Shown in pieces: positions 17,562 through 28,131 of a stretch of DNA of 32,026 nucleotides. Positions within the stretch are counted from its first letter, which is position 1. The number at the start of each line of letters is the position of its first letter. This DNA is from Fidelibacterota bacterium TCS56 (GTDB lineage Bacteria; Fidelibacterota; Marinisomatia; Marinisomatales; TCS56), in the NCBI GenBank assembly GCA_001577055.1, contig LSCG01000017.1, forward strand, positions 1 through 32,026, in the 5' to 3' direction. The position numbers and the translations under genes are program-made. Below the pieces are notes generated by a model. The model was given only the letters and a program-made list of their open reading frames with translations. It did not search any database and was not told the origin of the DNA.

Positions 17562-17619
17562 TTTGAAGTCGCAATAAAATACTTTACTCATGTAGGAAAA
17601 AAAGCCTAAGATTCACCCG

Positions 17620-17672
17620 GTCGGGATTTGAGCCATATTGCCCCGACGCTAAATAAAGAAGCTAAAAAGGCC
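17620..17672 (+). ncRNA. SAM-II (metA-type) riboswitch aptamer
   Basis: The order and sequence of conserved parts match SAM-II. P1 is GTCGGG (17620-17625) with CCCGAC (17642-17647). Loop L1, ATTTGAGCCATATTGC (17626-17641), matches the AUUUxAxCCxUAUUGC core. It is followed by an A-rich linker and the hallmark AGCTAAAAAGG strand (17660-17670). The pseudoknot is supported by GCC (17632-17634) with GGC (17669-17671), and by UUGC at the end of L1 with GC(U)AA. It binds S-adenosylmethionine and lies immediately before a terminator and metH, so high SAM should shut the methyl-cycle operon. Recognised from memory of the family; not run against a covariance model. Confidence 0.92.
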
Positions 17673-17689
17673 TGAAAACCGGATTAGCT
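17660..17689 (+). promoter_or_regulatory. Candidate antiterminator helix of the metH leader
   Basis: AGCTAA (17660-17665), part of the conserved SAM-II strand, is perfectly complementary to TTAGCT (17684-17689), which covers the terminator loop and the first base of its 3' arm. The helix would trap the terminator 5' arm inside its loop, so it cannot coexist with the terminator or with the ligand-bound SAM-II pseudoknot. This suggests read-through without SAM and termination with SAM. Structure drawn by hand; no folding energies were computed. Confidence 0.55.
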
Positions 17690-17701
17690 CCGGTTTTTTT
17701 T
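17675..17701 (+). terminator. Riboswitch-linked terminator directly before metH
   Basis: AAAACCGGA (17675-17683) pairs perfectly with TCCGGTTTT (17689-17697) around a TTAGC loop, and a T-run continues to 17701. The metH ATG is the next base. Because it stands between a SAM-II aptamer and metH, it must be conditional for metH to be expressed from upstream. It may also end the hpf/nucleotidyltransferase transcript. Confidence 0.87.
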
Positions 17702-20700
17702 ATGCCGAAGATTGCCGAAATATTATCCGAAGAAATTCTGGTGCTGGATGGCGCCATGGGTACCCAAATCCAGGCCTGCAATCTATCTACCGCCGATTTT
17801 AACCGGGGGAAGTTTACCAATCACCCTGTCGATCTCACCGGCAATAATGATTTACTGTCACTGACACGACCGGAGATAATTGCCGGTATCCATCAGGCCT
17901 ACCTGGCAGCCGGGTCCCACATTGTGGAAACCAACACCTTTAACGCCAATGCCGTTTCACAAGCCGATTATCAACTGGAAGATCGGGTTTATGAAATTAA
18001 CCTGGCGGCCTCCCGTCTGGCCCGGCAGACTGTCGATAAATTCAATTCTGACCATCCAGAGCGCAGTTGTTTTGTGGCCGGTGTTCTCGGTCCCACGAAT
18101 CGTACTGCTTCCATCGGCCCCGATGTCAATCGCCCTGAATATCGTAATATTGATTTTGCCACCCTGAAAGCCGCCTACCGTACCCAGGTGCAGGCGCTGA
18201 CGGCCGGTCAGGTGGATTTATTATTGATCGAAACGGTTTTTGATACCCTCAATTGTAAAGCGGCTATCGCCGCCGTTCAGGAAATACGGCAGGAAACCGG
18301 TGTCAATCTCCCGTTGATGATATCAGTGACCATTGTTGATGCCAGCGGCCGGACGCTCTCAGGGCAGACCCTGGAAGCCTGCTGGTATTCAATCGCCCAT
18401 GCCCAGCCGTTGATCGTAGGCCTGAATTGTTCGCTGGGAGCCACCGAATTGCAGCCATTTGTACGTGAATTGGCGGAAATTGCCGCGACTCATGTCTCCG
18501 TCCATCCCAATGCCGGCCTGCCCAATGAGTTGGGCGAATATGACGATACCCCTGAAAATATGTCCGGGATTCTGGGTGGATTGGCCCGGGAGGGACTGAT
18601 TAACGTGGTGGGCGGCTGCTGCGGTACTACTCCGGAACATATCAGCGCAATTGCCCAAATTGTGCAGGATGTGCCACCGCGCAGATTGGCAAAACCGGCA
18701 GCGGCGACCACCCTGGCCGGATTGGAGCCTCTGCGAATCGATGCCGATTCCCTGTTTGTCAATGTGGGTGAGCGGACTAACGTGGCCGGTTCGGCCCGCT
18801 TCGCCCGTCTGGTCCGGGAGGAAAATTACGAGCAGGCGCTTAAAATCGCCCGTCAGCAGATCGAGAATGGCGCTCAGATCATCGACATTAATCTGGATGA
18901 CAGCCTGCTGGACGTCCGGGCCGCCATGGTGAAATTGCTGAATTTAATCGCTTCCGATCCGTCGATTGGCCGGGTACCAATTATGCTGGATTCTTCCGAA
19001 TGGGAGGTGCTGGAAGCGGGGTTGCAATGTCTGCAGGGGAAGGGGATTGTCAATTCCATCAGCCTTAAAGATGGGAAAGAGGAGTTTCTCCGCCGGGCGC
19101 GTCTGATCCGGCGTTATGGTGCGGCGGTGATTGTGATGGCCTTCGATGAAAACGGCCAGGCCCATAATTACCAGCGCAAGGTGGATATTTGTCGACGGGC
19201 ATATCGCCTGCTCACCAGCCAGGCCGGCTTCGATCCCGGCGACATTATTTTTGACCCCAACATTTTTGCAATCAGCACCGGCATTGCAGAGCATGACAAT
19301 TATGCCGTGGATTATATCGCTGCCTGCCGTACGCTGAAAACGGAATTTCCATCATCCCTGGTAAGTGGCGGAGTAAGCAATATTTCCTTTGCATTTCGTG
19401 GCAATAATGTCGTCCGGGAGGCTATTCATTCCGTTTTTCTGTATCATGCGGTCCGGGCCGGCCTGGATATGGGCATCGTAAACGCCGGCCAACTGGCTGT
19501 GTATGATGATCTGCCACCTGATTTACGCCAGGCGGTGGAAGATGTGGTGTTGAATCGGCATCCCCAAGCTACTGAACGACTGACTGCTCTAGCCGGTAAT
19601 TACCAGGGAATCAGCCGCTCAAGCGTCATTACCGCCGACTGGCGGGAGCAACCAACCGCGGAGCGTATCCAACACGCTCTGGTGGAGGGGATCAGCGATT
19701 ATATTGTAGATGATGTGGAGGAATTTCGTCAGGGAGCCGGTGAATCGCTGGCGGTGATTGAAGGTCCGCTGATGGCGGGGATGGATCGCGTTGGCGACCT
19801 GTTTGGCGCAGGTAAAATGTTTTTACCCCAGGTGGTGAAAAGCGCCCGGGTGATGAAAACCGCCGTGGCTCATCTGACCCCGTTCATCGAGGCCGAACGC
19901 GCTAAATCCGGGATATCGCCAACAGCCCGGGGAAAAATCCTGTTGGCCACCGTCAAGGGTGACGTGCATGATATCGGTAAGAATATTGTCGCCGTTGTAC
20001 TGGGCAGCAATAATTACGAAATAATCGATCTGGGTGTAATGGCGCCGCCGGAACTTATTATCCGGAAGGCCGGGGAGCACCAGGTGGACATGATCGGTCT
20101 GAGCGGCTTGATTACGCCGTCGCTGAAAGAAATGGCGAAAGTGGCACAGGCGCTGGAGGACCAACAGGTGCAATTGCCGTTACTGATCGGAGGCGCCACC
20201 ACTTCCAAACTGCACACTGCTTTGAAAATCGCCCCGGTATATTCGGGTCCGGTTCTTCATGTCAATGATGCCTCCCGCAGTGTGCAGGTGGTCAAGGCTT
20301 TGCTGGGCTCAGAAGCGGGTAATCTGGTGACCGAAAATGATGCGGCCCAAGGCCGGTTGCGTGATTCGTATACCGCCAACCGCAAGCGGAAAGAATTCCT
20401 GTCCCTGGATGAAGCCCGCCGGCAGGTCCGGCCACCGGCCTGGCAAAACTACCAGCCACCGGCCCCCCGGAAGACGGAATTAAAAACCTGGCGGAATTTT
20501 CCACTGGACAAGTTGAGGGAATACATCGACTGGACGCCATTTTTTCACGTCTGGGAATTAAAGGGTAAATATCCGGCGATTCTGGATGATCCACGCCAGG
20601 GTCGGCAGGCCCGTGAGCTGTTTTCAGCCGCAAATAGCCTGTTGGACGAGATTATCGGCGATGGTTTACTGGAAGCGCGGGCCGTGGCCCGGGTTTTTCC

Positions 20701-21382
20701 CGCTAACGCCGCCGGTGATGATATCCGGCTTTATGCGGATGAAGATCGACAGCAGATTCTGGCCACCAGTTTCGGATTACGGCGGCAATTGGCCGGTGGC
20801 CGGAATAATCTGTGCCTCAGTGATTTTATCAGTCCCGTGGGCGGCCAACCGGACTGGCTGGGGGCTTTTGTCGTTTCCGCCGGCTTCGGCATCGAGGCTG
20901 CCATTAAACAGGCCCGCCAATCACAGAATGAATACCGGGTGATTATGCTGCAGGCGCTGGCTGACAGGCTGGCGGAAGCGCTGGCAGAGTCTCTGCATCA
21001 GCAGGTGCGTACGGATATCTGGGGTTTTGCCGATGAACGGGATTTAACCAGGGAAGATTTGCTGGATGAAAATTATCGTGGAATCCGCCCGGCACCTGGT
21101 TATCCGGCCTGCCCCGATCATCACGAGAAAACAACTTTATTTGATCTCTTGAATGCCACCGAGACAATCGGAGTAGAATTGACCGGGAATTACGCCATGG
21201 CGCCGGCGGCTTCGGTCTGCGGATGGATTTTTTCCCATCCCGAGGCCCATTATTTCAGTGTTAACCGTCTGCTGCCGGACCAGGTGGCCGATTATGCGTG
21301 GCGCAAATCATTGCCACTGCCACAGGTGGAAGAATTATTGCAGGCCAATCTGGCCTATGAACCAGCGGAAAGAAGTGAATAA
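17702..21382 (+). CDS. metH: Cobalamin-dependent methionine synthase, full four-module form
   Basis: Transfers methyl from methyltetrahydrofolate to homocysteine through methylcobalamin, making methionine. 1226 residues, essentially the length of E. coli MetH. Modules: homocysteine-binding barrel at about 1-325, with zinc ligands Cys243 (LNCS) and Cys306/Cys307 (GGCCGTT); pterin-binding barrel at about 345-610 ([13 protein letters not shown]); cap and B12-binding module at about 640-890, with DVHDIG at 754-759 and axial His756; and the SAM-dependent reactivation domain at about 900-1226 (RPAPGY at 1129-1134). All key residues seen are intact. The ATG directly follows the terminator T-run and has no Shine-Dalgarno, but [21 protein letters not shown] aligns with normal MetH N-termini, so the start is sound. 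First gene of the riboswitch-controlled metH-metF-metK-ahcY unit; metF follows after 3 bases. Confidence 0.97.
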
Positions 21383-21385
21383 AAA

Positions 21386-22330
21386 ATGCAGGTAATCGAA
21401 CATATTCAACGGGCCGGCGGAACGCTGTTCAGTTATGAGATTATTCCGCCACCCCGCGGTAAAAGCGCCAAGGAGATCATTGACATTGTCAAGCTACTGC
21501 AACCGTTTGACCCACCCTATATTGATGTAACCAGTCATTCGGCCGAAGCTCAGTATAAGGAACATGCCGATGGTACTCTGAAACGGCGAATTCTGAAAAA
21601 GCGTCCGGGCACAATCAGCATATGCGGTATTATTCAAAACCGATTTAAAATTGATACGGTGGCTCATCTGTTATGCCGCGGGTTCACCCGCGAGGAAACC
21701 GAGGATGCCCTGATCGAATTGAATTATCTGGGTATCGAAAATATCCTGGCAATCCGCGGTGATGAAACCAATTATAAGAAGCCGGTCCAACGTGATCGCA
21801 GTGTTAATAATTTTGCGTCTGATCTGGTGAACCAGATTGATGACATGAATCAGGGTAAGTTTCTGGAGGATCTGATCAATGCCGAACCGACCCGGTTCTG
21901 TGTGGGAGTGGGTGGGTATCCCGAAAAGCATTTCGAGTCGCCCAATCTTAAAACCGATCTGGAAAACCTCCGTGGCAAAATCCACGCCGGGGCAGACTAT
22001 GTGGTAACCCAGATGTTTTTTGATAACGCCGCTTTTTTAAAATTCAAGACACGCTGTCGTGAGATTGGCATCGATGTACCAATTATCCCCGGGATTAAAG
22101 TCATTGACCGGATGTCGCAACTGACCAATATTCCCCGCAATTTTCATGTCGATCTTCCCGATGAGCTGGTGGATGAAATCTCCGCTAACCCCAAGCATAT
22201 TGGTGAAATCGGCCGTGAATGGACCTACCGCCAGTGTGCTGAATTATTGAACGCCGGCGAAAGAAATATCCATTTTTATATCATGAATGATGCCAAAACC
22301 ATTACCGATATCGTTCGTAGAATTCAATAA
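21386..22330 (+). CDS. metF: Methylenetetrahydrofolate reductase
   Basis: FAD enzyme that reduces 5,10-methylene-THF to 5-methyl-THF, the methyl donor for the adjacent MetH. 314 residues, slightly longer than E. coli MetF (296). The catalytic glutamate is Glu18 in FSYEIIPPP; VTSHSAEAQY and ILAIRGDETNY (Asp126 of the RGD, expected at the FAD site) match the TIM-barrel family. GADYVVTQMFFD and PIIPGIKVI are the later conserved blocks. It starts 3 bases after the metH stop, so it is probably translationally coupled. The gap to metK is 35 bases with its own Shine-Dalgarno. Confidence 0.95.
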   Translation: MQVIEHIQRAGGTLFSYEIIPPPRGKSAKEIIDIVKLLQPFDPPYIDVTSHSAEAQYKEHADGTLKRRILKKRPGTISICGIIQNRFKIDTVAHLLCRGFTREETEDALIELNYLGIENILAIRGDETNYKKPVQRDRSVNNFASDLVNQIDDMNQGKFLEDLINAEPTRFCVGVGGYPEKHFESPNLKTDLENLRGKIHAGADYVVTQMFFDNAAFLKFKTRCREIGIDVPIIPGIKVIDRMSQLTNIPRNFHVDLPDELVDEISANPKHIGEIGREWTYRQCAELLNAGERNIHFYIMNDAKTITDIVRRIQ

Positions 22331-22365
22331 CAAGTTGATTTAACAAAGCATAGCAAGGAGTGATT

Positions 22366-23541
22366 ATGAGTCGTTTTTTATTTACATCCGAATCAGTGAC
22401 CGAAGGCCATCCCGATAAAGTCTGTGACGCCATTTCCGATGCAATTCTCGATAACCTGCTGCAGCAAGACCCGGATTCACACGTGGCCTGTGAAGCACTG
22501 GCCACCAAAGGACTGGTCGTGGTATCCGGTGAGGTGAAGACCAACGGCTTCGCCGAGGTGGAAGCTCTGGTCAAAAAAACGCTGGCGGAAATCGGTTATG
22601 TCGATGAAGCCTACGGCATGGACAGTACCCAGGTTCGCGTGATGTCCACTTTACACCAGCAGAGCGCCGATATTGACCGTGGCGTTGATGTGGGCGAGGG
22701 CGAGCAGGGAGCCGGCGACCAGGGTTTGATGTTCGGTTTTGCCTGCAACGAAACCGAGGAACTGATGCCGTTGCCGATTCAGTTGGCACATCAGTTGACG
22801 GCCCGCCTGGCCGAATTACGAAAAGACGGTAGTTTGCCCTGGTTGCGACCCGATGGCAAATCCCAGGTTACGGTGGAATACGATGGATTTAATCCACTGC
22901 GGATTGTAAAAACCGTGATCGCCACCCAGCATGACGATCTGTCCGGGCGCTTCGAAAATGAAATACAGGAGCACGAATTCATTTCCCAGGAAGTAATCAA
23001 AAGGATTATCAAACCGGTGCTGGAAAAGACCGGCCTGCCGGTAGCAGAGAAATTTATTATCAATGGCACCGGCCGTTTTGTCAAAGGTGGTCCCGATGCC
23101 GATACCGGCCTTACCGGCCGGAAGATCATCGTAGATACTTATGGCGGTTATGCTCCCCATGGCGGTGGCGCCTTCAGCGGCAAAGATCCTTCCAAGGTGG
23201 ATCGTTCCGGTACCTATATGGCCCGTTATATTGCCAAGAATCTGGTGGCGGCCGGCCTGGCGGAGCGCTGTGAAGTCCAGCTTTCGTACAGCATCGGCGT
23301 GGCCGAACCCACCTCGCTGGCGGTAAAATCATTCGGCACCGGCCAGGTAAGTGATGAACGACTCACTGGGATTGTGCAGGCCGTGTTTCCTCTTAAGCCA
23401 CGGCAGATTATCGAACACCTGCAACTGAAGCAGCCACTTTATCGTCCCACAGCTGCCTATGGTCATTTTGGTCGGAATGGTAATAATTTCACCTGGGAAA
23501 AAACTGACAAGGTCGCAGAATTGCAGACCTATTTAAAATGA
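22366..23541 (+). CDS. metK: S-adenosylmethionine synthetase
   Basis: Makes SAM from methionine and ATP. 391 residues from the ATG at 22366. An in-frame GTG at 22360 overlaps the AAGGAG Shine-Dalgarno (22355-22360) and is not the start. Motifs: GHPDK (14-18) in the first domain, the ATP-binding hexapeptide GAGDQG (115-120), and the glycine-rich loop GGGAFSGKD (266-274), all intact. The product SAM is the predicted ligand of the riboswitch in front of metH, so metK sits under feedback from its own product if co-transcribed. ahcY follows after 9 bases. Confidence 0.97.
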   Translation: MSRFLFTSESVTEGHPDKVCDAISDAILDNLLQQDPDSHVACEALATKGLVVVSGEVKTNGFAEVEALVKKTLAEIGYVDEAYGMDSTQVRVMSTLHQQSADIDRGVDVGEGEQGAGDQGLMFGFACNETEELMPLPIQLAHQLTARLAELRKDGSLPWLRPDGKSQVTVEYDGFNPLRIVKTVIATQHDDLSGRFENEIQEHEFISQEVIKRIIKPVLEKTGLPVAEKFIINGTGRFVKGGPDADTGLTGRKIIVDTYGGYAPHGGGAFSGKDPSKVDRSGTYMARYIAKNLVAAGLAERCEVQLSYSIGVAEPTSLAVKSFGTGQVSDERLTGIVQAVFPLKPRQIIEHLQLKQPLYRPTAAYGHFGRNGNNFTWEKTDKVAELQTYLK

Positions 23542-23550
23542 GGAATTTTT

Positions 23551-24996
23551 ATGAGTGAAATTGAAAAGAAATTGATCGTAAACACAGAGTTGCCTTATAA
23601 GGTCAAGGATATCAATCTGGCGTCCGCCGGCCGCCGCGCCATTGAAATGGCCGAAAAAGAAATGCCGGGGCTGATGGCAGTGCGTAAAAAATATGGTGCT
23701 GATAAACCATTGCAGGGTTATCGCATCAGCGGTTCACTTCACATGACAGTGGAAACAGCGGTGTTGATTGAGACTCTGCACGAATTGGGAGCTGACATCC
23801 GCTGGGCCAGTTGCAATATATTTTCTACCCAGGATCATGCCGCTGCCGCAATCGCCGCCCGGGGCATTCCGGTGTTTGCCTGGAAAGGTGAAACCCTGGA
23901 AGAATACTGGTGGTGTACCCGGCAGGCCTTGACTTTTGCTGATAATCTTGGTCCCCAGTTAATCGTGGATGACGGTGGCGATGCCACCCTCATGATCCAT
24001 CGCGGTGTCGCCCTGGAGCAGGAATATGCCGATACTGGAGCGCTGGCTCCCTCTACCGCAACCAGCGGTGATGAAAAAACCCTGGAAGCCAATCTGCGCG
24101 ACGGTATTCTGGATGAAAATAATCATTGGACAACGGTGGTGAAAGATATCCTCGGTGTATCGGAAGAGACTACCACCGGCGTACATCGTCTGGAGCAGAT
24201 GGAAGCAGCGGGAAAACTGTTGTTCCCGGCCTATAATGTGAATGATTCGGTGACCAAGTCCAAATTTGATAATATTTACGGCTGCCGTGAATCGCTGGCG
24301 GACGGAATCAAACGGGCCACCGATGTAATGATCGCAGGCAAGACCATTGTGGTCTGTGGTTACGGCGACGTGGGCCGCGGTTGCGCCCAGTCCATGCGTG
24401 GTTATGGCGCCAAAGTACTGGTAACGGAAATCGATCCCATCTGCGCCCTGCAGGCCGCTATGGAAGGCTTTCGGGTAGTGACGGTTGAACAAGCCCTGAA
24501 TGATGGCAACATCTTCGTCACCGCTACCGGCAACGTGGATGTTATCACCCTGGAGCACATGGAAAAAATGAACGATCAGGCCATTGTCTGCAATATTGGT
24601 CATTTCGATAATGAAATCCAGGTTGACCCCCTGGACGAAGCGCCGCAGGTGAAGAAGGAAACCATTAAACCGCAGGTTGATCGTTACACTTTTCCTGATG
24701 GCCACCAGATTTTCATGCTGGCCGAAGGTCGGTTGGTTAACCTGGGCTGCGCTACCGGCCATCCCAGTTTTGTCATGTCCAATTCCTTCACGAATCAGGT
24801 GCTGGCCCAGCTTGCCCTGGCCAAGGATCAGCCGGCTGTGGGTGTTTATCGCCTGCCGAAAAAACTGGATGAAGAAGTTGCCCGCCTCCACCTGGCACAT
24901 CTGGGCGTAACCCTGACGGAACTCACTGATAAGCAGTCTGAATATCTGGGGATCCCCAAGGAGGGTCCTTATAAATCGGAACATTATCGCTATTAA
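23551..24996 (+). CDS. ahcY: S-adenosylhomocysteine hydrolase
   Basis: NAD-dependent enzyme that splits S-adenosylhomocysteine into adenosine and homocysteine, returning homocysteine to MetH. The 481-residue length includes the extra segment common in bacterial forms (around [20 protein letters not shown]). Motifs: [14 protein letters not shown]-type substrate region ([17 protein letters not shown]), the VDDGGD block, the NAD-binding GYGDVG (270-275), and the family C-terminus ending [15 protein letters not shown], overlapping the metK stop, serves as Shine-Dalgarno. Last gene of the methyl-cycle operon, closed by a terminator 18 bases later. Presence of AhcY indicates the one-step SAH route; no luxS/mtnN pair is in the window. 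Confidence 0.97.
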
Positions 24997-25046: not shown

Positions 25047-25167
25047 GTGGTAATGCTGGCTAAATTTATTGTACTTTAACCAGTATCGTTATGTCCATTC
25101 GTTTAAACAACTTACCCTGAGCAGGCGGGAAATGGATTGGAGACACTTGCCTCTTGAAGCACATAAA

Positions 25168-28131
25168 ATGCTTCCGTCTCGACGGAGCGGCGCTTTTAAA
25201 TTGATCATTTTGGGCTTGGTGACGGTGTTGTTCTTCACCGTCAGTTGTGATTTTCAGAGTCCGGCCGATTTTGAAATGCCCACCTGGTTTATGGATTTGA
25301 ATATCCCCTTGCTCCAGGAGCGGTATCCCCTGGGCGGCATGGTGGATGATGAACAGATTTTTGCTACCTCAGATTCTCTGGGTATGCAGGTGGTTTTTGA
25401 AGGTACCCTGCCCGACACTTCCATTGATGAATCCTATCTGCAGGTGCCGGTCAATCAGAATATTAATTTTGCCCAGGATCCGGTTTATTCGCCTGACCTG
25501 GATTTTACCTTTGACACTTTGCTGACAGTGGAAATTCCCCTGGCTCCCGATGGCCAGTTCATGGATGTCAACCTGGATACCTTCGATGTTCCCTCGGCGG
25601 TGGATAAACAGATTTTTTCTGCCACCTGGAATCAGATCGCCAGCGCTTTTGACCAGCCGATCCAGATCGATATTGACATCCCCCAGGTGGATGAGAATGA
25701 TCTGCCTGAATTCATTACCTCAGTAGAATCGATTAAAATCAGCGGCGACACGGGCAGTGATTCCAGTCTTTTCGCCAGCTCGATTCATAATAATGGCCTG
25801 CCAACAGCCGTCACCGATGTGGAATTCAGCCTGCTCACCGATCTGCCCAGTCCGCAGGATACGCTGGCTTTCCACAGCAGGAACCGTGTCGAGAAAGACA
25901 GTATTTACGCCGAATCCACCTCGCTGGGCGATAAACATTTGGGGAGTACGATTCAGATCAATATGGGATTCGGGATCGAAGAAGAGACGGTGTTGGATAC
26001 GCTGGTTATCAAGGCCGGCGATTCAGTTAAAGTGGATTTGACGATTCGGGTGCGGATTGCCGGTGTGGATGAAGCGGTGGTCAATGTGGCCGAATATGAT
26101 TTATCACCGGAGATACCGGCGGTGGAATTCCCCTCTGATGTGGAGATTTATTCCGGCACCTTTAAGGACCCTTCGCTGGGATTCGGGATCAACGAAATTA
26201 CCCTGGAAAATCTGCAAAGCACCTATTTGTTCGATATTGATTTCACCATGGATTTTCGCAATTTCATTCCCCCGCCGGGCGACGATTCGGTCAAGATTCA
26301 AACCACCCTCAGCCGCGACAGCAGCGCCTTCGAACGCAGTTTTGATCTGGATGGCTACATTTTCGCCAATCCCGACACCGCCGACACCAACGCCCTTACC
26401 GAAATGGATGTGACCGTGTCGGCAATTATTCCCGAACAACAGGCATCAATTCCGCTGGATGGCTCCGAATTCGGACGCTTGACGCTTGATATTGCCGTCA
26501 ATGAATTGCATTTTGAATCATTGCAGGCCAACCTGCTGCAGGAATTCCCACCCACCGAACAGGAGATGACCGGCCTGCCCAAGGGGTTTTCCGGTATGGC
26601 TTTTACCGATGTGAAGATCGAGTTTATAATGCTGAACCAGATTCAGTTGCCGGTGGACCTTGATTTGGACATGATCGGAGTTAATACCTTCGGTGATTCA
26701 TCAGTGGTGCGGGTCCGGGCTCAGATGGGTAGTCCCGATAATGCCGCCGATACGATCAAGACCGTCATCCGCCTGAGCCGAGCAGGCACCACGACCCTGA
26801 TTTATGACAGCCCGGCCGATTCGGTCTGGAGCGACAGCACCAACTCGCCACCCGGTCCGGGTGAAGCCACCATTGTCGATTTGCTTTCTTTCAATCCGGC
26901 CACGATGGTGATTAACTCGGTGGCCCGCATTGATGGCCGGGGAACGATTGTAGTCGGTGCATCCATCGGTGGATCATATCGTTTGATCGCGCCGTTTGAA
27001 GTGCGCATGGCGCCCATGACCTTCATCCCGGTGAATGAATCGCCGTTGGAGGAATGGGATTATGAAATGCGCAATAAGATCCGCAGCGGTCTGCGCAGCG
27101 CCTCGGCCGTGGCCCGGGTGAAAAATCATATCCCGGTCGGCGGCGAAGTCTCAATTTTATTATCAAACCAGAGTCATTTCCCGCTGGATATGTCGCGGAA
27201 ATATCTGGACAGCATGGCGGTGGATCTGGGGATCGACCTGAGCGGCGGCGACAGCCTGTATGTGGTGACCGAATGTGAGCTGCTGGACCCGGTCCATGCA
27301 GATTCATCGATCTATATTTTCGATTTGATGTCAGACTTTGGTGATTGTGTTGACGGGGTAGCCTACTTCGTGAAATCATCGTCCAGCGGTATTGACACTG
27401 TTGTCACCTATGTGGACACCCTGTTGAGTATCGTTCTGCCGGATCCGACCCTCGATAATTATGATACTGAAAATGATGATCGCCGCGTAGTCAGCATCCC
27501 CGGTGATTTTACCACTTCCAGCGTCATTGATCCGGGTAAAATCCGGCTTATGACCAGTGCCGGCGACCACTACACCGCGCCGCGTTTTCACCTGAACGGT
27601 TCACCCATCGATCCCATTACCGGAGATTCACTTTCAGTGTTTTTATCCCTGAATGATTATGTGGATATTACCGCTTTCATGACCTTTGAAATCAGCAGTA
27701 CCGGCATGCTGGAATCGACACCCGGCGAACTGGTGCTGACCTATCCCAACGGTGGTGAAACCATTAACGTGCTGGATCCGGTAACGATTCGCTGGTTGAC
27801 GTATGGTGAAGTTTCCCGGATCAATATTGATTACGCCACCGGTACCGATCCTGAAATCGATGACGAAACCCGCTGGATTCCCATCCAGTCCAACTGGACC
27901 GCCATCGCTAACGTGGATTCGTTTGTCTGGGATGCCTCCACCGTGATTCAGAGTATTCCCACGGCCCAGCAGGACAGCGTCAGGTTACGAATTTCTAACA
28001 GCAGTGGTGACGTTTCCGACATGAGCGGCTGGTATTTTACCCTGGAAGAAATCTTACGTGCGCAAAAACTGGTAATTCCAAATCATATCATTCCCGTCTC
28101 TCCCAGGCAGCAGCAAGGGAGGCGACCGTGA
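25168..28131 (+). CDS. Large predicted outer-membrane lipoprotein of unknown function, Ig-like C-terminal domain
   Basis: 987 residues from the ATG at 25168. The frame is also open from TTG 25069 and ATG 25132, but 25168 gives a compact signal peptide: MLPSRRSGAFK, then a hydrophobic LIILGLVTVLFF, then an atypical lipobox TVSC with Cys27. Neither ATG has a clear Shine-Dalgarno, so 25132 (999 residues) remains possible. The mature protein is rich in Asp, Ser and beta-strand patterns, with repeated strand-turn segments of about 150 residues (for example around ESIKISGDTGSDS and EFPSDVEIYSGTFKDPSLGF). The last ~120 residues start with 'LVLTYPNGGETINV' and run to 'ISNSSGDVSDMSGWYFTL', resembling the Ig-like/GPI-anchor-like domain common in exported bacterial proteins. 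No catalytic motif recognised. It overlaps the next gene by 4 bases (GTGA), so it likely works with that barrel protein. Confidence 0.75.
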   Translation: MLPSRRSGAFKLIILGLVTVLFFTVSCDFQSPADFEMPTWFMDLNIPLLQERYPLGGMVDDEQIFATSDSLGMQVVFEGTLPDTSIDESYLQVPVNQNINFAQDPVYSPDLDFTFDTLLTVEIPLAPDGQFMDVNLDTFDVPSAVDKQIFSATWNQIASAFDQPIQIDIDIPQVDENDLPEFITSVESIKISGDTGSDSSLFASSIHNNGLPTAVTDVEFSLLTDLPSPQDTLAFHSRNRVEKDSIYAESTSLGDKHLGSTIQINMGFGIEEETVLDTLVIKAGDSVKVDLTIRVRIAGVDEAVVNVAEYDLSPEIPAVEFPSDVEIYSGTFKDPSLGFGINEITLENLQSTYLFDIDFTMDFRNFIPPPGDDSVKIQTTLSRDSSAFERSFDLDGYIFANPDTADTNALTEMDVTVSAIIPEQQASIPLDGSEFGRLTLDIAVNELHFESLQANLLQEFPPTEQEMTGLPKGFSGMAFTDVKIEFIMLNQIQLPVDLDLDMIGVNTFGDSSVVRVRAQMGSPDNAADTIKTVIRLSRAGTTTLIYDSPADSVWSDSTNSPPGPGEATIVDLLSFNPATMVINSVARIDGRGTIVVGASIGGSYRLIAPFEVRMAPMTFIPVNESPLEEWDYEMRNKIRSGLRSASAVARVKNHIPVGGEVSILLSNQSHFPLDMSRKYLDSMAVDLGIDLSGGDSLYVVTECELLDPVHADSSIYIFDLMSDFGDCVDGVAYFVKSSSSGIDTVVTYVDTLLSIVLPDPTLDNYDTENDDRRVVSIPGDFTTSSVIDPGKIRLMTSAGDHYTAPRFHLNGSPIDPITGDSLSVFLSLNDYVDITAFMTFEISSTGMLESTPGELVLTYPNGGETINVLDPVTIRWLTYGEVSRINIDYATGTDPEIDDETRWIPIQSNWTAIANVDSFVWDASTVIQSIPTAQQDSVRLRISNSSGDVSDMSGWYFTLEEILRAQKLVIPNHIIPVSPRQQQGRRP

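Follow-up and report, generated by a model that had tools for sequence, protein, structure and literature searches.

The leader of metH in Fidelibacterota bacterium TCS56 raises the question of whether a SAM-II aptamer and the terminator behind it form a single transcription switch, in which one strand serves both the ligand-bound pseudoknot and an antiterminator. We analyzed the window, the whole 32,026-nt stretch of contig LSCG01000017.1, together with homologous leaders; all coordinates refer to the + strand of the window. With a probability of about 0.85, we read the element as a SAM-II OFF switch, in which termination shuts the metH-metF-metK-ahcY operon.

A cmscan search with Rfam matched SAM-II (RF00521, SAM_alpha) at 17610–17686 with 38.6 bits, above the gathering score of 36, and an E-value of 1.8e-5, covering the full length of the model (positions 1–79). 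The covariance model thus bore out the clear SAM-II aptamer seen in the sequence-only reading. The 3' end of the match overlaps the terminator hairpin; it was the only SAM-II copy in the whole genome and the sole Rfam match within the window. Stem P1, recognized in the sequence, model, and fold, consists of GUCGGG (17620–17625) and CCCGAC (17642–17647), which form 6 bp in the computed fold. The strands of P2a and P2b were read by inspection, and their assignment follows the SAM-II crystal structure, which we take to hold here: P2a presumably joins UUGC (17638–17641) to GC(U)AA within 17661–17665, and P2b, by analogy with the SAM-II pseudoknot, GCC (17632–17634) to GGC (17669–17671). The AGCUAA strand at 17660–17665, recognized in the sequence, folding, and relatives, is shared between two alternatives, the P2a pseudoknot and the antiterminator. 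The conserved core elements GAUUUG, UUGC, GCUAAA, and AGG were all present according to the model alignment and the relatives. By its RF00521 score, strands, core, and gene context, the element is a genuine SAM-II riboswitch, and SAM binding is predicted for it.

The ORF at 17702–21382 encodes cobalamin-dependent methionine synthase MetH (TIGR02082, 1606 bits), which agrees with the earlier placement of the terminator before metH. It is followed by metF for methylenetetrahydrofolate reductase (21386–22330; PF02219, slightly below the TIGR00676 cut-off), metK for SAM synthetase (22360–23541, profile match), and ahcY for adenosylhomocysteinase (23551–24996, profile match). The methionine/SAM cycle is therefore encoded in a single gene run behind the SAM-II element, and the four genes are probably co-transcribed. 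The ATG at 17702 as the metH start is backed by the relatives, where the MetH start also lies close behind the U-tract. No sigma-70-like promoter was found in the window directly before P1; counted from P1, the aligned upstream regions contained no more than a weak T-rich block around -35 and an A/T block around -10. Behind ahcY, at 25069–28131, a 1020-aa ORF without any Pfam match was located, followed by a gene for a DUF5723 protein.

The terminator hairpin occupies 17675–17697 (9–10 bp; -12.2 kcal/mol for 17673–17701). Its DNA reads AAAACCGGA-TTAGC-TCCGGTTTT; in the RNA, the arms AAAACCGGA and UCCGGUUUU enclose a UUAGC loop. The U-tract (17694–17701) ends at the metH start codon (ATG 17702), and 2 bases separate the AGGCC strand of the aptamer from the start of the hairpin. 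The coordinates of the sequence-only reading, a 9-bp terminator at most 3 bases behind the aptamer with a T-run reaching the metH ATG, were thus right. So was its observation that the AGCTAA strand of the aptamer (17660–17665) is the exact complement of TTAGCT (17684–17689), the antiterminator partner comprising the loop and the first base of the 3' arm. The site before metH was absent from the list of a generic terminator scan, probably because the stem runs into A/T pairs and the tail has fewer than five T's. A GC-rich hairpin with a U-tract before the ORF is nevertheless present, as seen in the sequence, relatives, and folding.

By kinship, the TCS56 bacterium, an uncultured marine organism, probably belongs to Ca. 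Marinimicrobia (Neomarinimicrobiota). The element is widespread in this phylum: SAM-II matches at E ≤ 0.001 were found in 105 of the 245 genomes searched, and 53 of these passed the gathering score. A separate pattern scan with one genome per species yielded 40 records, all from Ca. Marinimicrobia / Neomarinimicrobiota except three (two named "FCB group bacterium" and one "bacterium"). The element was followed by metH in all 40 of these records, whose genomes overlap those of the 96 homologous metH leaders (the window's own included) collected for the pairing tests. Among these 96, metH was recognized by motif in 93; two read DGPMGT, and in one the contig ends.

Other SAM-II-like motifs were also encountered in the phylum. 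A second subtype, CAACGTTATGGCCGTGCTTTAACCCAACTTGCAGGCGGC...GCTAAACCGGG, was found at six loci (L095, L097, L098, L103, L108, and L109 in genomes G136, G010, G045, G088, and G064). It has its own terminator, is near-identical between genomes, with two copies in G010, scores below the gathering score, and has no recognisable methionine genes behind it; at L097 and L103 another SAM-II-like aptamer follows. This subtype is possibly a mobile cassette. Low-scoring SAM-II-like motifs GTGGAGATTTGAGAGGCTTGCAACCAC were found at L064, L093, and L101 (G142, G169, and G027), in tandem in G142 and G169; they precede non-methionine ORFs, one of which appears AAA-type ATPase-like by eye.

Pairing between the aptamer strand (six bases plus GCTAA) and the terminator hairpin was assessed as the best helix in each of the 96 leaders. 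The helix with the GCUAA strand reached 5 bp or more in 89 leaders and 6 bp or more in 74. The mean energy of the best helix was -10.84 kcal/mol for own pairs, compared with -9.36 ± 0.19 kcal/mol when hairpins were swapped between leaders (none of 5000 permutations was as low) and -6.77 ± 0.16 kcal/mol for stem-preserving hairpin shuffles. In a register control, 75% were paired at the true register and at most 57% when the strand was slid. TAGC occurred in 24 of 36 riboswitch terminators and in none of 39 other terminators in a sample of 41 DNA pieces, the window and 40 relatives. The stems beneath the loop differ (CCGG, CCCG, CGGC, CGAT, and others), so the loop is more than a passenger on an invariant hairpin; most of the 17 families retain the loop element, while stems and spacers vary strongly. 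Conservation of the aptamer-loop complement is strong at its core. Three metH leaders of one genus (g9 of family f7; L065, L067, and L088) have an aptamer and a terminator lacking the GCUAA complement, through either natural loss or different wiring, and in another genus (g32) AAATGC pairs with GCATTT on the other side of the hairpin.

Covariation beside the core was analyzed in 86 leaders with an alignment anchored solely on the constant TTAGC. The first pair beside the core (v1:w1) was formed in 74 of them (61 Watson-Crick, 13 wobble; 55.3 ± 2.8 when shuffled), the second (v2:w2) in 71 (59.3 ± 2.5), and the third in 49 (43.8 ± 2.3). Family f9 alone has three versions of the second pair, G:C, T:A, and A:T (GGTGCTA/TAGCACC, GTTGCTA/TAGCAAC, and GATGCTA/TAGCATC, respectively). 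When each of 39 genera was represented by a single leader, the excess was kept (median z 3.6); when each of 17 families was, covariation was not significant (median p 0.15). On the MetH tree, the A:T state of the first pair occurs in several separate lineages, and differing independent pairs at v1:w1 point nearly all in the expected direction, although they are too few to be significant; independent pairs gave no trend for the A:T state of the second pair. In several leaders, the bases next to the core fail to pair. Overall, covariation of the pairs beside the core is moderate, and the comparison of homologues recovered the AGCTAA/TTAGCT complement in most leaders, with covariation.

Folds of growing transcripts were computed with the pseudoknot and SAM left out of the model. 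For RNA ending at 17689, the antiterminator is the lowest-energy fold (-16.5); at 17693, it is about level with the terminator (-17.8 vs -18.0); at 17701, the terminator wins with -23.2 against -18.5, a margin of 4.7 kcal/mol. Among the relatives, folded against a reference in which the GCUAA strand was barred from pairing, 91% favoured the antiterminator when the RNA stopped right behind the antiterminator's 3' strand, and 47% still did so with the full terminator transcribed. In these models, the course of folding fits a decision made during transcription. With 6 bp, the antiterminator of the window falls short of the finished terminator by 4.7 kcal/mol, and therefore it would have to act kinetically.

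That the antiterminator excludes both the terminator and the aptamer is well supported by the conserved complement, covariation, and folding; the mutually exclusive antiterminator proposed earlier gained ground from the relatives and from the folding of growing transcripts. With SAM bound, GCUAA would be held in the P2a pseudoknot and the terminator loop would stay free; the hairpin at 17675–17697 could then close, and RNA polymerase would stop in the U-tract that leads up to the metH AUG. When SAM is absent, AGCUAA would pair with the emerging UUAGCU before the 3' arm of the terminator is complete, and transcription would go on. SAM binding, ligand-dependent termination, and the kinetic order of these steps are what we infer. 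If this is true, the same five or six nucleotides serve both to sense SAM and to decide on termination, and the outcome is settled where the U-tract meets the first start codon of a SAM-cycle operon. The predicted switch is very small (about 92 nt), with clear wiring.

A constitutive terminator not wired to the aptamer, with SAM acting on translation or RNA stability, is an unlikely explanation: the loop complement is conserved with covariation, and TAGC is missing from the other terminators. Such a terminator has been proposed behind the Sinorhizobium metA SAM-II aptamer (PMC9373788), and by folding the finished terminator of the window clearly outweighs the antiterminator in stability. It could also be supposed that the hairpin owes its TTAGC loop to chance or descent and that the loop has no function, since all leaders are homologous, so the loop is inheritable, and the family-level covariation test is not significant. 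We consider this highly improbable in view of the persistence of the loop element across most families over strongly varying stems and spacers, and of the compensating T:A, G:C, and A:T pairs found at v2:w2 within a single family.

Translation control, or a double layer of control, in which the AAAAAGG of P2b acts as the ribosome site and is hidden by SAM, would account for the lack of an SD-like motif near the metH AUG of the window. AAAAAGG (17664–17670) is about 8 nt away from the AUG when the hairpin is not counted, a remote SD inside the aptamer works in S. meliloti metA (PMC9373788), and genes of the phylum show SD-like motifs (GGAG in 21% near vs 4% far). The effective spacing, however, ranges from 4 to 31 nt across relatives, and the aptamer needs the purine strand anyway, which makes this explanation quite unlikely. 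No SD-like strand at a fixed short distance from the start codon was found, the linear distance in the window being 31 nt. A hairpin bridging the SD and the start codon was set aside because the spacing varies and is not kept in the relatives.

The OFF switch by termination has precedents in other bacteria. In 2005, Corbino et al. reported intrinsic terminators behind many SAM-II elements (PMC1273637), and Barrick and Breaker in 2007 described SAM-II as the aptamer most often tied to regulatory terminators in alpha- and betaproteobacteria (PMC2258182). For the SAM-II riboswitch of metZ in Sinorhizobium meliloti, Scheuer et al. in 2022 proposed action through a terminator (PMC9373788), and tandem SAM-II and SAM-II/SAM-V arrangements with terminators have also been described (PMC9481103). 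The sequence-only reading held that the best studied SAM-II riboswitches act on ribosome access, which applies to the structural model, and regarded a transcription-acting SAM-II as a variant, which did not stand: in view of the reports of 2005 (PMC1273637), 2007 (PMC2258182), and metZ (PMC9373788), such action is not itself new.

The alphaproteobacterial SAM-II elements with terminators (PMC1273637, PMC2258182) share with the window the aptamer class, the methionine/SAM genes, the predicted OFF switch, and the position of the terminator between P2 and the ORF, but belong to another phylum. For comparison, we searched a plasmid collection, which contained seven SAM-II records, all from Rhizobiaceae, four of which were read; no SAM-II of the alphaproteobacterial type was found in viral contigs, and none was found in phage records. 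One SAM-II of Sinorhizobium medicae (plasmid pSU277_4, 61908–61986) has GTCTAAAT replacing GCTAAA and no methionine gene annotated nearby, and is perhaps a decayed copy. In Sinorhizobium metZ and its Shinella counterpart, the terminator lacks TAGC, and by folding GGCCGG of P2b pairs with the 5' arm. The terminator of S. meliloti metZ is predicted to be SAM-induced, as here, and a riboswitch-sized sRNA whose level goes up in rich medium supports that prediction (PMC9373788); by folding, its antiterminator strand is a different one, and the metZ start codon does not stand directly at the U-tract. More similar to the window is the metA leader of Rhizobium sp. NLR16a (NZ_CP072868.1), in which the aptamer GUCGCUA can pair with UAGCGAU of the hairpin; in this single sequence the partner lies in the 5' arm, unlike the loop and 3' arm used in the window. 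In the tandem SAM-II/SAM-V of Ca. Pelagibacter ubique (PMC9481103, PMC11508383), likewise marine, SAM-II also precedes a terminator, but a second aptamer controls the ribosome site, and none was seen in the window. A terminator loop serves as a pairing site, as here, in a guanidine riboswitch example cited in PMC10907184; the ligand promotes loop pairing there, whereas in the window the ligand would prevent it.

A literature search found no paper on SAM riboswitches in Marinimicrobia, and a phylum-wide loop-embedded antiterminator seems undescribed so far. Set beside these few leaders, all of Rhizobiaceae, the loop-embedded antiterminator looks like a Marinimicrobia design. It is somewhat probable that Marinimicrobia possess a phylum-wide SAM-II platform that uses the P2a strand, which contacts the ligand, rather than P2b as its antiterminator and aims it at the loop of the terminator. 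The leaders of the phylum provide about a hundred natural variants in which the aptamer strand and terminator loop pair with differing strength.
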